DNA of 64,000 nt from Kiritimatiellia bacterium (lineage in GTDB: Bacteria > Verrucomicrobiota > Kiritimatiellia > CAIVKH01). The translations under genes were made by a program, and so were the position numbers. The stretch spans positions 395,761 to 459,760 of the forward strand of contig JAOSKE010000003.1 of assembly GCA_027493775.1 (NCBI GenBank), given 5' to 3'. Below are positions 7,272 to 45,968 of this stretch, piece after piece; position 1 is the stretch's first letter, and each line of letters starts with the position of its first letter. Under the pieces are notes generated by a model. It did not search any database. It saw only the letters and a program-made list of their open reading frames with translations, and was not told the origin of the DNA.

Positions 7272-7286
7272 TTCCAAGGATTGGAA
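7272..7286. repeat. Solitary copy of the TTCCAA-N3-TTGGAA palindrome
   Basis: ttccaa gga ttggaa in the prfC to yedK-like intergenic region. Confidence 0.7.
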
Positions 7287-16369: not shown

Positions 16370-16416
16370 TTCCAAGGGTTGGAAGTCTATAACGAAGGGA
16401 GTTCCAAGCCTTGGAA
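16370..16416. repeat. Two-unit TTCCAA-N3-TTGGAA palindrome array, 32-bp period
   Basis: Units at 16370-16384 and 16402-16416, with a 17-nt spacer. Confidence 0.85.
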
Positions 16417-16421
16417 GTTTT

Positions 16422-17489
16422 ATGAACGCCGCCCCAAAAATTGATCTACTGGACCTCTCGCGAGAGCAGCTCGCGGAGGTATTAAAGCGGCATGGTCAAC
16501 CAGCGTTTCGTGCGAAGCAAATCCATCGCCAACTGCACGTCAACCTTGTCGCCGCAATGACAGAAATGAGTGATCTTCCCAAGGCGTTGCGCGAAGAGTT
16601 GGCCGCCGAGTTGCAAATCGGATCGCTCACCCTCGCAACCGTTCACGAAGGCGATCACGGAATGACGCGGAAGGCGCTGTTCAAATTGCCGGACGGTTCG
16701 CCAGTGGAAACCGTTTTGATGGTCTATCCGGATCGCGCGACGGTCTGCGTGTCCAGTCAGTCGGGGTGCCCTATGGGTTGCGTGTTTTGCGCCACCGGCC
16801 GACTCGGCTTTCTACACGACCTGACTGCGGGGCAAATCGTCGAACAGGTTTATTGGGCTGAACGACTCCTCCGCGCGTCGGACTTCCCGGTAAAAAAACT
16901 GACCAATGTCGTGTTCATGGGGATGGGCGAACCGTTCAACAACTACGACCAATGGCGCACATCGGTGGATATTCTCCACGATCCCGAAGGCTTCAATATG
17001 GGCGCGCGCAGTTACACCGTGTCCACCGTCGGTCTCGTTCCCGGCATCCGCAAACTTGCCGATGATCCGCTGCCGATCAATCTCGCGATTTCGCTGCACG
17101 CGCCGGACGACGAAACGCGCTCCGCACTGATGCCGGTGAACAAGAGTTTTCCAATTGCGTCCCTCCTCGATTCCGTGAAGGACTACACGGAAAAGACGAA
17201 TCGGCGCGTCTCTTTTGAATACGTGTTGCTTCAGGAAAAGAATGATTTTCCGGAGCAGGCCGATTTGTTGGGACGGCTCCTGCGCAAGAGCGAAATTCGT
17301 CCCGCGCTAATGCACGTGAACTTGATTCCGTGGAATCCGGTGCCCGGCGCTCCACTCGGTCGCTCACACCGCAAACGCGTGCTCGCATTTCAAGAGGGCC
17401 TGCACAAACACGGCGTCCCGTGCACGATCCGCGTCGAACGCGGCGTGGACATCGGCGCGGCTTGCGGTCAGCTTGCGGGCACAGCCTGA
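16422..17489 (+). CDS. rlmN: 23S rRNA (adenine(2503)-C(2))-methyltransferase RlmN
   Basis: Radical SAM 'SQSGCPMGCVFCATG', 'VVFMGMGEPFNNYD', 'INLAISLHAPDDETRSALMPVN'. Confidence 0.95.
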   Translation: MNAAPKIDLLDLSREQLAEVLKRHGQPAFRAKQIHRQLHVNLVAAMTEMSDLPKALREELAAELQIGSLTLATVHEGDHGMTRKALFKLPDGSPVETVLMVYPDRATVCVSSQSGCPMGCVFCATGRLGFLHDLTAGQIVEQVYWAERLLRASDFPVKKLTNVVFMGMGEPFNNYDQWRTSVDILHDPEGFNMGARSYTVSTVGLVPGIRKLADDPLPINLAISLHAPDDETRSALMPVNKSFPIASLLDSVKDYTEKTNRRVSFEYVLLQEKNDFPEQADLLGRLLRKSEIRPALMHVNLIPWNPVPGAPLGRSHRKRVLAFQEGLHKHGVPCTIRVERGVDIGAACGQLAGTA

Positions 17490-41945: not shown

Positions 41946-42723
41946 ATGATTCTGCATGTTGCCAATCTAGCCAAACGCTTCGGCGGTTTGCTCGCCATCA
42001 ACGACCTCAGTTTCGATGTTGAGGAGGGCCACATTTTTTTCGATCATCGGGCCGAATGGCGCGGGGAAAACCACCCTGTTCAATATTCTGACCGGTGTGT
42101 ATCGCCCCGACACCGGATACGTAACCTTCAACAACAAACGCATCTCCGGCATGGCCCCACACCACATCGCCAAACGCGGCATTGCGCGTACGTTCCAAAA
42201 CATCCGACTCTTCGGCGCGATGACCGTGTATGAAAACGTGCTCATCGGCCAGCACCCGCACATTCGCTACAACTATCTCGACGCCATTTTCGGAACGCCA
42301 CGTTGCACTCGGGCCGAAAAACGCGCTCAGGAAGAAGCCGAACAACTGCTCGACTATATGGGCCTCAGCGCCCGCGCATACGACCTCGCGCAAAATTTGC
42401 CGTACGGCGCACAACGCCGTTTGGAAATCGCGCGGGCGCTTGCGCTCCGCCCAAAACTACTCCTGCTCGACGAGCCGGCTGCAGGAATGAACCCGCAGGA
42501 AACGGACGAATTAAAAACACTCATCCGCCGTTTGCGCGACGACCGCAACATCACACTGCTCCTCATTGAGCACCACATGAAAGTCGTGATGGAAATTTCA
42601 GACCGCGTCGTCGTTCTCGACTACGGCAAAAAAATTGCCGAGGGCGCCCCCGCCGAGGTGCGAAAAGAACCCGCCGTCATCGAAGCCTATCTCGGCAAGG
42701 GCGCCATGGGGAATCTCGCATGA
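41946..42723 (+). CDS. livG: Branched-chain amino acid ABC transporter ATP-binding protein LivG, frameshifted at T7 (about 42034-42040)
   Basis: 'MILHVANLAKRFGGLLAINDLSFDVEEGHIF' joins 'SIIGPNGAGKTTLFNILTG...DEPAAGMNPQE'. Confidence 0.9.
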
Positions 42724-43442
42724 ACGCCGCCGCTGTTCTTCAGTTGCAAAACGTACAGGCCTTCTATGGCCACATTCACGCGCTCAAGGATATTTCGATT
42801 GAAGTGCGCGAGGGCGAGATCGTTACGCTCATCGGTTCCAACGGCGCGGGGAAAAGCACAACGCTCCGTTGCATCTCAGGACTGCTCGCGCCGACGGAAG
42901 GCAAGATTTTGCTGCGCGGCCAACCGATCCACGGCAAAAAACCCTACGAAGTAGCCGCACTCGGCATCGGACACGCCCCCGAAGGACGAAAGATTTTTCC
43001 GCAGCTCACCGTGGAAGAGAATCTCGCCATCGGCGCATACTTGGAGTCCGACAAAACCATCATCGCGCGCCGCAAGCGCGAAGTGTACGAATTATTTCCA
43101 CGCCTCGCCGAGCGACACAAACAAGACGGCGGCACCCTCTCTGGCGGCGAACAGCAAATGCTCGCCATCGGCCGCGCCCTGATGCAAGACCCTGCAATTT
43201 TGCTTCTCGATGAACCCACCCTCGGCCTAGCCCCGGTGCTCGTTGAGCTGCTTTTCGAGACCTTACAAACACTGCACAAGGCTGGAAAAACAATTTTGCT
43301 CGTCGAACAAAATGCCTGGCACGCCCTACAGATTGCCCAACGCGCCTACGTCCTCCAAACCGGTATCATCACCCATCAAGGCGCTGCAAAAGACTTGTCC
43401 AACAATCCTGAAATCAAGCAAGCCTACCTCGGTGGCGATTGA
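42720..43442 (+). CDS. livF: Branched-chain amino acid ABC transporter ATP-binding protein LivF
   Basis: 'GSNGAGKSTTLRCISGLL', 'LSGGEQQMLAIGRALM', 'LLLDEPTLGLAPVLV'. Confidence 0.92.
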   Translation: MNAAAVLQLQNVQAFYGHIHALKDISIEVREGEIVTLIGSNGAGKSTTLRCISGLLAPTEGKILLRGQPIHGKKPYEVAALGIGHAPEGRKIFPQLTVEENLAIGAYLESDKTIIARRKREVYELFPRLAERHKQDGGTLSGGEQQMLAIGRALMQDPAILLLDEPTLGLAPVLVELLFETLQTLHKAGKTILLVEQNAWHALQIAQRAYVLQTGIITHQGAAKDLSNNPEIKQAYLGGD

Positions 43443-43495: not shown

Positions 43496-43606
43496 TTCCA
43501 AGCCTTGGAAGTGTCCAGCGCGGTTTTTTCCAAGCGTTGGAAGTTTTTGGGTGAAAAAGTTCCAAGGGTTGGAAGTCGGTCGCAAAATGAGTTCCAAGGG
43601 TTGGAA
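43496..43606. repeat. Four-unit TTCCAA-N3-TTGGAA palindrome array, strict 32-bp period
   Basis: Units start at 43496, 43528, 43560 and 43592 (15 bp each); three unrelated 17-nt spacers. Confidence 0.92.
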
Positions 43607-44288: not shown

Positions 44289-45968
44289 TCATTCTCGCGG
44301 AGCAACAACTTCGCGGGCGCGGTCAAGGGCGCGATCAAAGTGGTCGTGTACGTTTGCGGGGCCAATTCGACGGTAGAGCCCGGCGCCAACCAACTCGTCC
44401 CAAGGTTGGGCTTGGACACCGGAGAGGATCAGCGTGGTGCCGTCTTTCTGGCACTTTGCAAAGACATCCGCCATGGCGCGCAGGCCGGTGGCATCAATCA
44501 TCGGGACGTGGCGCATTCGCAAAATTAACACCTTGGGCGGCTTCTCAAGCTGGCCCATGGCATCCTTGAAGCGATCGGCGGCGCCGAAGAAAAACGGGCC
44601 GTAGATTTCAAACACCTCGACGCCTTCGGGCACGCTGCGATGCCGCGTTGCGTCGGGATCGCTGTCCTCATCTTCCTCGTCCGCAACATCGTCTGTGATG
44701 AAGTTCACCTGTGTGGATTCGGCCATGCGATACATAAAAAGAAACGCAGCCATAATCACGCCGGACTCAATCGCAATCGTGAGGTCCACGAACACCGTGA
44801 GCAGGAAGGTCGAAACCATGATGAGGACATCGCCGCGTTGGGCACGGAACAGTCGTATGAAGAGTCGCCACTCGCCCATATCTATCGCAACTTTGATCAG
44901 AATAGCCGCGAGCACGGGCATAGGGATCAATACGGTCCACTTGCCCAGCGCGATCATCAACACGAGCAGGGTCAGCGCGTGAATGATGCCTGCGACTGGC
45001 GTCTTTCCGCCGTTGCGAATGTTCGTCGCAGTGCGCGCAATTGCGCCGGTTGCAGGAATACCCGCGAAGAGCGGCGAGACCAAATTGGCGATTCCCTGCG
45101 CCACCAGCTCCGTGTTTGATCGGTGGCGACGCCCAGTCATTCCGTCGGCAACAACTGCGGAGAGCAGGGACTCAATCCCGCCGAGCAGCGCAATGGCAAA
45201 GGCAGGCTGGAAGAGGCGCGGCAACTGATGCCAGTCCATTTGGGGGAGCGCAGGGGCCGGGAGCATATTCGGCACACTGCCGAAGTGCGTGCCGATGGTG
45301 GCGACGGGAATTTTTAGCAAGGCGACAAGCGGGGTAAGCACGAGAATCGCGACAAGTGAGCCCGGCATACGTCGGCTGACGCGCGGCCAGAATAGGATGA
45401 TGGCGAAGGCCAGCAGGGCGAGTCCGATGGCGTACACATTGAGGCTGCCGATATGCTCCGCATAGGCGATCATCTTTTCGTGAAACTCTGCGGGTGGCGG
45501 CGGCATTTCCAAGCCGAGCAAATCGCGAATCTGGGTGACGGCGATTAAGACCGCGATCCCGCAGGTAAATCCAACTGTGAGCGGATACGGGATGAACTTG
45601 ATCATCGAGCCGAATCGCATCACGCCCATTACAAGAAGGAACGCGCCAGCGAGCATCGTTGCGACGGCTAACCCGCCGTAGCCAAATTGCTGGACCGTGT
45701 TATAGACGAGGACGATGAACGCCCCCGTCGGACCGCCGATCTGTACCCGACTCCCCCCAAGGGCGGAGATCAAAAATCCGGCGATGACGGCAGTGAACAG
45801 GCCTTGCTCCGGCTTCACGCCAGACGCGATGGCGAGCGCGATGGAAAGGGGAAGCGCGACAATTCCAACGAGGATACCGGCAAGGAGGTCGCGGTTGAAC
45901 AGAGAGAGCGAGTAGCCCTCCTTAAACAATACGGTGTAGAGCTTGGGTTTGAAGCTGGCGTCTTTCAC
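44289..45968 (-). CDS. SulP-family inorganic anion transporter with STAS domain
   Basis: 'RDLLAGILVGIVALPLSIALAIASGVKPEQGLFTAVIAGFL', C-terminal STAS 'VLILRMRHVPMIDATGLRAMADVF'. Confidence 0.9.
   Translation of the reverse strand: MKDASFKPKLYTVLFKEGYSLSLFNRDLLAGILVGIVALPLSIALAIASGVKPEQGLFTAVIAGFLISALGGSRVQIGGPTGAFIVLVYNTVQQFGYGGLAVATMLAGAFLLVMGVMRFGSMIKFIPYPLTVGFTCGIAVLIAVTQIRDLLGLEMPPPPAEFHEKMIAYAEHIGSLNVYAIGLALLAFAIILFWPRVSRRMPGSLVAILVLTPLVALLKIPVATIGTHFGSVPNMLPAPALPQMDWHQLPRLFQPAFAIALLGGIESLLSAVVADGMTGRRHRSNTELVAQGIANLVSPLFAGIPATGAIARTATNIRNGGKTPVAGIIHALTLLVLMIALGKWTVLIPMPVLAAILIKVAIDMGEWRLFIRLFRAQRGDVLIMVSTFLLTVFVDLTIAIESGVIMAAFLFMYRMAESTQVNFITDDVADEEDEDSDPDATRHRSVPEGVEVFEIYGPFFFGAADRFKDAMGQLEKPPKVLILRMRHVPMIDATGLRAMADVFAKCQKDGTTLILSGVQAQPWDELVGAGLYRRIGPANVHDHFDRALDRAREVVAPRE

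Follow-up and report, generated by a model that had tools for sequence, protein, structure and literature searches.

The palindrome array and its neighbourhood

The window analysed here, i.e. the whole 64-kb stretch of Kiritimatiellia DNA, contains a branched-chain amino-acid transport operon closed by a livF-like ABC ATPase gene, and 53 bp past the stop codon of this gene begins an array of four perfect TTCCAANNNTTGGAA units. They start at 43496, 43528, 43560 and 43592, carry the cores GCC, GCG, GGG and GGG, and are separated by steps of exactly 32 bp throughout. Both the array and its position downstream of livF, recorded in a first-pass annotation of the sequence, were confirmed, and the gap holding the array proved to be convergent (ABC ATPase at 42720-43442, minus-strand permease at 44289-45968). 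Seven perfect units occur in the window (the four-unit array, the pair at 16370 and 16402, and a single unit at 7272), and none was found by chance in 100 dinucleotide-preserving shuffles. The features are as follows:

7272-7286, no strand: solitary unit, downstream of a peptide-chain-release-factor-3-like gene
16370-16416, no strand: second pair module (units at 16370 and 16402, step 32 bp), immediately upstream of an rlmN-like gene called at 16422
42720-43442, plus strand: livF-like ABC ATPase, last gene of the transport operon
43496-43510, no strand: unit 1, TTCCAAGCCTTGGAA, left palindrome of module A, core GCC
43511-43527, no strand: inner spacer of module A, gtgtccagcgcggtttt
43528-43542, no strand: unit 2, TTCCAAGCGTTGGAA, right palindrome of module A, core GCG, 32-bp step
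43543-43559, no strand: spacer joining modules A and B, gtttttgggtgaaaaag, with edges like the outer flanks of isolated pairs
43560-43574, no strand: unit 3, TTCCAAGGGTTGGAA, left palindrome of module B, core GGG
43575-43591, no strand: inner spacer of module B, gtcggtcgcaaaatgag
43592-43606, no strand: unit 4, TTCCAAGGGTTGGAA, right palindrome of module B, core GGG
44289-45968, minus strand: sulfate permease (SulP-STAS), convergent, beyond the array

Within the transport operon, the livM-like (40648-41445/41390-41908) and livG-like (41859-42233/42016-42723) genes each appear to be split over two frames, which reflects either assembly errors or broken genes.

Anatomy of the pair module

In the genome to which the window belongs (hereafter G000), the consensus element is a pair, AAAAs-TTCCAANNNTTGGAA-GTC-N11-GAC-TTCCAANNNTTGGAA-sTTTT, forming a module of about 57 bp in which two 15-bp dyads lie 32 bp, or three helical turns, apart. 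Admitting units with up to three mismatches, the sampled stretches of G000 hold 39 clusters, comprising 31 pairs, two triples, five quadruples and one single, the unit at 7272 being the sole unpaired case. The step is exactly 32 bp in all 31 two-unit clusters, while quadruples follow the pattern 32-(31, 32 or 33)-32, indicating a rigid step inside pairs and a loose join between them. Isolated pairs, of which 28 were compared, have GTC at their inner edges (G 73%, T 89%, C 59%) and AAAA/TTTT in the outer flanks (68-88% A). The middle spacers of quadruples have edges of the outer type, and the array of the window is therefore best described as two adjacent modules, one at 43496+43528 and the other at 43560+43592, with the outer-type spacer gTTTTTgggtgAAAAAg between them. 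Thus, the array originally noted is real, but it consists of pairs rather than of four equal units. Nor did the description of its spacers as unrelated hold, since in this genome in-pair spacers begin with GTC and finish with GAC; these shared edges, together with the outer AAAA/TTTT, imply that the spacers are not wholly unrelated.

Over approximately 644 kb of G000, the distances between perfect units fall only at 31-33 bp and near-multiples thereof (63-65 and 95-97 bp), with none at 21, 42 or 53 bp. This sample was picked around known clusters, which biases the counts but not the distances, and it displays the peak at 32 bp and its multiples that the first-pass annotation had proposed to look for.

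Abundance and taxonomic distribution

The complete G000 assembly (3.20 Mb, five contigs) contains 186 perfect copies of TTCCAANNNTTGGAA and none of the reversed control pattern, a count far above chance, as had been anticipated. Copy number differs greatly among relatives, from 3,044 units in G004 and 111 in G021 to two in G001 and none in G003, the latter two being poor in the exact motif. Among 388 sampled genomes of the phylum, pairs were identified in 47 of 129 members of the class and in one of 257 others, with two copies. Database records matching the 32-bp pair pattern were labelled Kiritimatiellia, Pontiellaceae, 'Lentisphaerae', 'Verrucomicrobia' or 'PVC group', and in some cases 'uncultured bacterium', and five of 2.9 million viral contigs had a paired match, one each (L362-L366). 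No earlier description of the motif, or of Kiritimatiellia repeats, was found in the open-licence literature. The initial observation of the array was therefore correct but understated, as it made no link to a genome-wide and class-wide family.

A CRISPR-like array was rejected, the units being 15 bp long, where CRISPR repeats exceed 20 bp and are gathered with unique spacers into a single array near cas genes, and the pairs being dispersed over more than 30 sampled places.

A class-wide motif family and species-specific switching

Comparison across the class yielded a common core, TTCCA-N5-TGGAA, repeated at steps of 31-33 bp. Using the more general pattern TTMCA-N5-TGKAA, with pairs at 16-18 bp spacing, modules were detected in 99 of 288 class genomes, the control pattern giving zero in all 288; G001, G003 and G030 had 93, 122 and 89 such pairs, respectively. 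In further genomes the units read TTCCAT..ATGGAA or TTCCAC..GTGGAA, and arrays reach about seven units. Steps of 31 and 32 bp tend to alternate in G021, their mean of 31.5 bp equalling three turns of 10.5 bp, and in G004 the flanks have edges unlike those of G000 and a GC-rich spacer middle. The spacers of G068 and G086, again unlike those of G000, share a recurrent core, AAAATTTTCGGCnn, possibly a longer repeat or the product of local copying.

Units are retained between relatives while their surroundings diverge. G002, with about 80% protein identity to G000, has units in all six syntenic gaps tested; cores, spacers and sometimes the number of units differ, so that the arms and their spacing are under selection. 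A scan of motif-poor relatives for any palindrome pair with matching arms returned none; it was synteny that brought to light the non-palindromic units of G001 and G003. In the murF-mraY gap, G000 carries a pair of TTCCAANNNTTGGAA units (TTCCAA..TTGGAA) with a 32-bp step, whereas the step is 31 bp in G001, which has TTTACAGAGCATGGAA twice, and in G003, where the pair is of a related kind. A genome of the same genus has, in the same gene gap and with a 31-bp step, the unit TTCCATGCTCTGTAAA, which forms no hairpin. The same gap and period filled with different letters argue for a phased DNA-binding protein of drifting specificity and against an RNA hairpin.

These comparisons also bear on the possibility that the units are mobile, or resemble REP palindromes, and owe their copies to a Y1 (RAYT) transposase. 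Like REP/BIME elements, they are high-copy intergenic palindromes, at times in regularly spaced clusters, and vary widely in number between relatives; spacer best-match similarity slightly exceeds that of column-shuffled controls (12.2 vs 11.5 of 17), one identical 17-nt spacer is common to two loci and a recurrent motif occurs in G068 spacers. Sequence shared beyond the palindrome amounts to the short edge consensus in G000 and to that recurrent motif in G068. Perfect arms, however, contrast with diverging spacers at a fixed within-pair step. The murF-mraY gap measures 73 bp with modules and 80 and 122 bp without them; module-bearing gaps are thus no longer than module-free orthologs, and the overlapping lengths indicate that simple insertion is not the rule. 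Moreover, Y1_Tnp is absent or rare in unit-rich genomes (no match in G021 with its 111 units, only three in G004 with 3,044), and unlike REP/BIME sequences, which are accompanied by a Y1/RAYT transposase, the modules show no dependence on one, keep an exact 32-bp pair step and are replaced by another unit at the same gap between species. On these grounds the REP/RAYT explanation was rejected as very improbable. Among the relatives, G035 stands out for 86 partial Y1_Tnp (PF01797) matches, mostly of about 60 aa, far above the others.

Position of the modules relative to genes

Gene context was assessed in 30 stretches with a home-made codon-model gene caller, according to which most units are intergenic. 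Among G004 gaps of at least 60 bp, 15 of 16 convergent ones are occupied versus 70 of 119 others (p=0.005), and the same tendency is found in G000 (9/32 versus 23/231, p=0.007). In tandem gaps of G004, the median distance of a module is 26 bp to the stop codon preceding it and 67 bp to the start codon that follows, and modules in divergent gaps lie about 80 bp from either start. Hence the bias towards gene ends that had been suggested holds only in part: enrichment peaks in convergent gaps, yet modules also occupy divergent and tandem ones. A perfect pair was also found within a gene, nadE, where it falls in the stretch encoding the linker that joins the CN_hydrolase domain to the NAD_synthase domain (L132:8829-8875; G000:C1 about 44829). 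The genes on either side of the modules serve varied housekeeping functions and share no pathway.

That modules are enriched in convergent gaps and close to stop codons would suit transcription terminators or mRNA 3'-end hairpins, all the more as each unit can form a stem of 5-6 bp and the whole array of the window can fold back on itself at -50.6 kcal/mol. A single-unit stem, however, reaches merely -3.3 kcal/mol and is not consistently followed by a U-tract, so that the stable GC-rich hairpin and U-tract of intrinsic terminators are missing, and the unit of G001 in the orthologous gap is unfolded (0 kcal/mol). Units are also present in divergent gaps, in the murF-mraY gap and within nadE, and a role in RNA would not need 32-bp phasing. 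With weak stems and a non-hairpin orthologous unit, the hairpin or terminator reading was rejected as very improbable, and the earlier alternative of 6-bp stems in RNA is not supported.

Alternatively, the modules could be ordinary operators of a large regulon, bound by a repressor or activator near promoters. Operators paired at two or three turns are common for transcription factors, and the retention of modules in orthologous gaps agrees with such a role, but the varied housekeeping neighbours, the fact that occupancy is highest in convergent gaps, which need no promoter, and the presence of modules in most G004 gaps make it unlikely. Other chromosomal sites known as short palindromes for a dimeric architectural protein, i.e. 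matS, parS and the Noc-binding sites, are single, number tens per genome and are limited to parts of the chromosome, whereas the modules consist of phased pairs distributed along the sampled chromosome, with up to 3,044 units; the segregation-like role envisaged at first is not indicated.

Candidate reader proteins

Regulators of the Lrp/AsnC family recognize inverted repeats of 13-17 bp spaced by two or three turns and wrap DNA, their natural sites being usually degenerate (PMC2995911). The sites of BarR, TTGGAAAAATTACAA (PMC4977709), and Ss-LrpB, TTGCAAAATTTGCAA (PMC4046817), are 15-bp palindromes of similar layout. The 15-bp TTCCA-N5-TGGAA core and the 31-33 bp steps fall within these ranges, and the likeness extends to the pseudo-palindromic arrangement of about 5-5-5 and to sites 15-17 bp apart, three turns from centre to centre; the wrapping of DNA by a multimer would be a further parallel. 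Known Lrp/AsnC sites are few and degenerate, whereas the modules comprise hundreds to thousands of near-perfect units in gaps of every orientation.

Most of the class encodes a single-copy full-length Lrp (AsnC_trans_reg plus HTH). It is present in all 79 genomes with at least five pairs and in 162 of 209 others (p=1e-7, uncorrected for phylogeny, which confounds the association because Lrp losses cluster in a few families); the test covered Lrp as sole candidate family, and many genomes without the motif also carry Lrp. Lrp/AsnC control regions are commonly, if not universally, targeted by their own product, whereas 11 of the 12 genomes examined lack a site ahead of lrp; the twelfth is G004, in which most gaps bear sites.

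In close contrasts (G001 and G003 versus G000 and G002; G030 versus G041, G060 and G104), residue 32 of the Lrp recognition helix has changed to Arg in parallel in the variant-motif genomes G001, G003 and G030. It is one of two columns, out of 72 variable ones, that change in parallel, and with two columns and few recognition positions the link is suggestive only. The pattern fails in family f26 and in G012, and a comparison over all type A and type B genomes gave no clean rule for Lrp specificity, residue 32 emerging from the close contrasts only. Taken together, Lrp is the leading but unproven candidate, at odds somewhat below even.

The lrp loci have features of their own. A conserved, promoter-like GCTGGACGC box followed by a TAT-type element precedes lrp in several genera (L272, L275, L276), and an aminotransferase class I/II gene follows it in G000. 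In addition, G000 encodes a RAM (AsnC_trans_reg) protein that stands alone, lacking an HTH and measuring about 92 aa (G000:C3:522813-523019); it is also present in G002, G004 and G029.

The phased operator may also be read by another tetrameric protein, for instance one with NrdR-like geometry, or by an undescribed family, an alternative that deserves serious weight even if it falls short of being probable. NrdR tetramers provide a precedent: on 57-bp DNA they occupy two boxes set some three turns from one another, the spacers measuring 14-17 bp (PMC9110341, PMC12051234), and the pair module shares this geometry with its two three-turn palindromes over about 57 bp. The functional unit in G000 is a pair, which suits a tetramer, and in most genomes the lrp genes are siteless. 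On the other hand, the NrdR consensus, with its conserved GC pairs of the ACAC..GTGT type, differs from that of the units; NrdR box pairs are confined to ribonucleotide reductase promoters, the genes that NrdR governs, whereas the modules occur genome-wide in up to thousands of gaps, and no canonical NrdR-type box pair was present in the 3.07 Mb of sequence searched.

A proposed phased protein operator at gene boundaries

To account for the observed anatomy, spacing, conservation, distribution and species-specific switching of the motif, we propose that the element is a double-stranded DNA operator, bound by a protein which assembles into tetramers or octamers and wraps or clamps the borders of genes, an explanation which, taken as a whole, we regard as evenly poised. 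That the element acts as phased DNA rather than as RNA, and is bound by protein, is its firmest part and very probable: the first-pass idea of phased sites for an oligomeric dimeric protein is supported by the copy excess, the 31-33 bp distances and the 31.5-bp mean step in relatives. Each protein dimer would occupy one 15-bp dyad, and dimers would assemble in fixed geometry into a tetramer on a pair and larger wraps on four-unit arrays. Because modules occupy gaps of all orientations and are densest in convergent gaps and near stops, a boundary is the most likely function as opposed to an ordinary promoter operator; that the bound complex has a boundary or architectural role at all is a proposal we make with middling confidence. 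Such a complex would separate transcription units as a nucleoprotein boundary that restrains supercoils, stops read-through and organises the nucleoid, and the most likely reader would be the single-copy Lrp/AsnC-family regulator of the class.

A broader and more speculative reading, rather doubtful at present, is that of a boundary or insulator system in which one sequence-specific architectural protein marks most gene gaps along the chromosome by means of a fixed two-dyad module, its site being rewritten genome-wide as specificity shifts between species. If right, a whole bacterial class would possess a helically phased, genome-wide mark of gene gaps, reaching at its densest roughly one pair every few kilobases, with a single oligomeric reader. 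Bacterial chromosome insulation and the concerted evolution of hundreds of binding sites would then become directly testable, given a module of 57 bp, a candidate reader that is one small protein and natural variant motifs in relatives.
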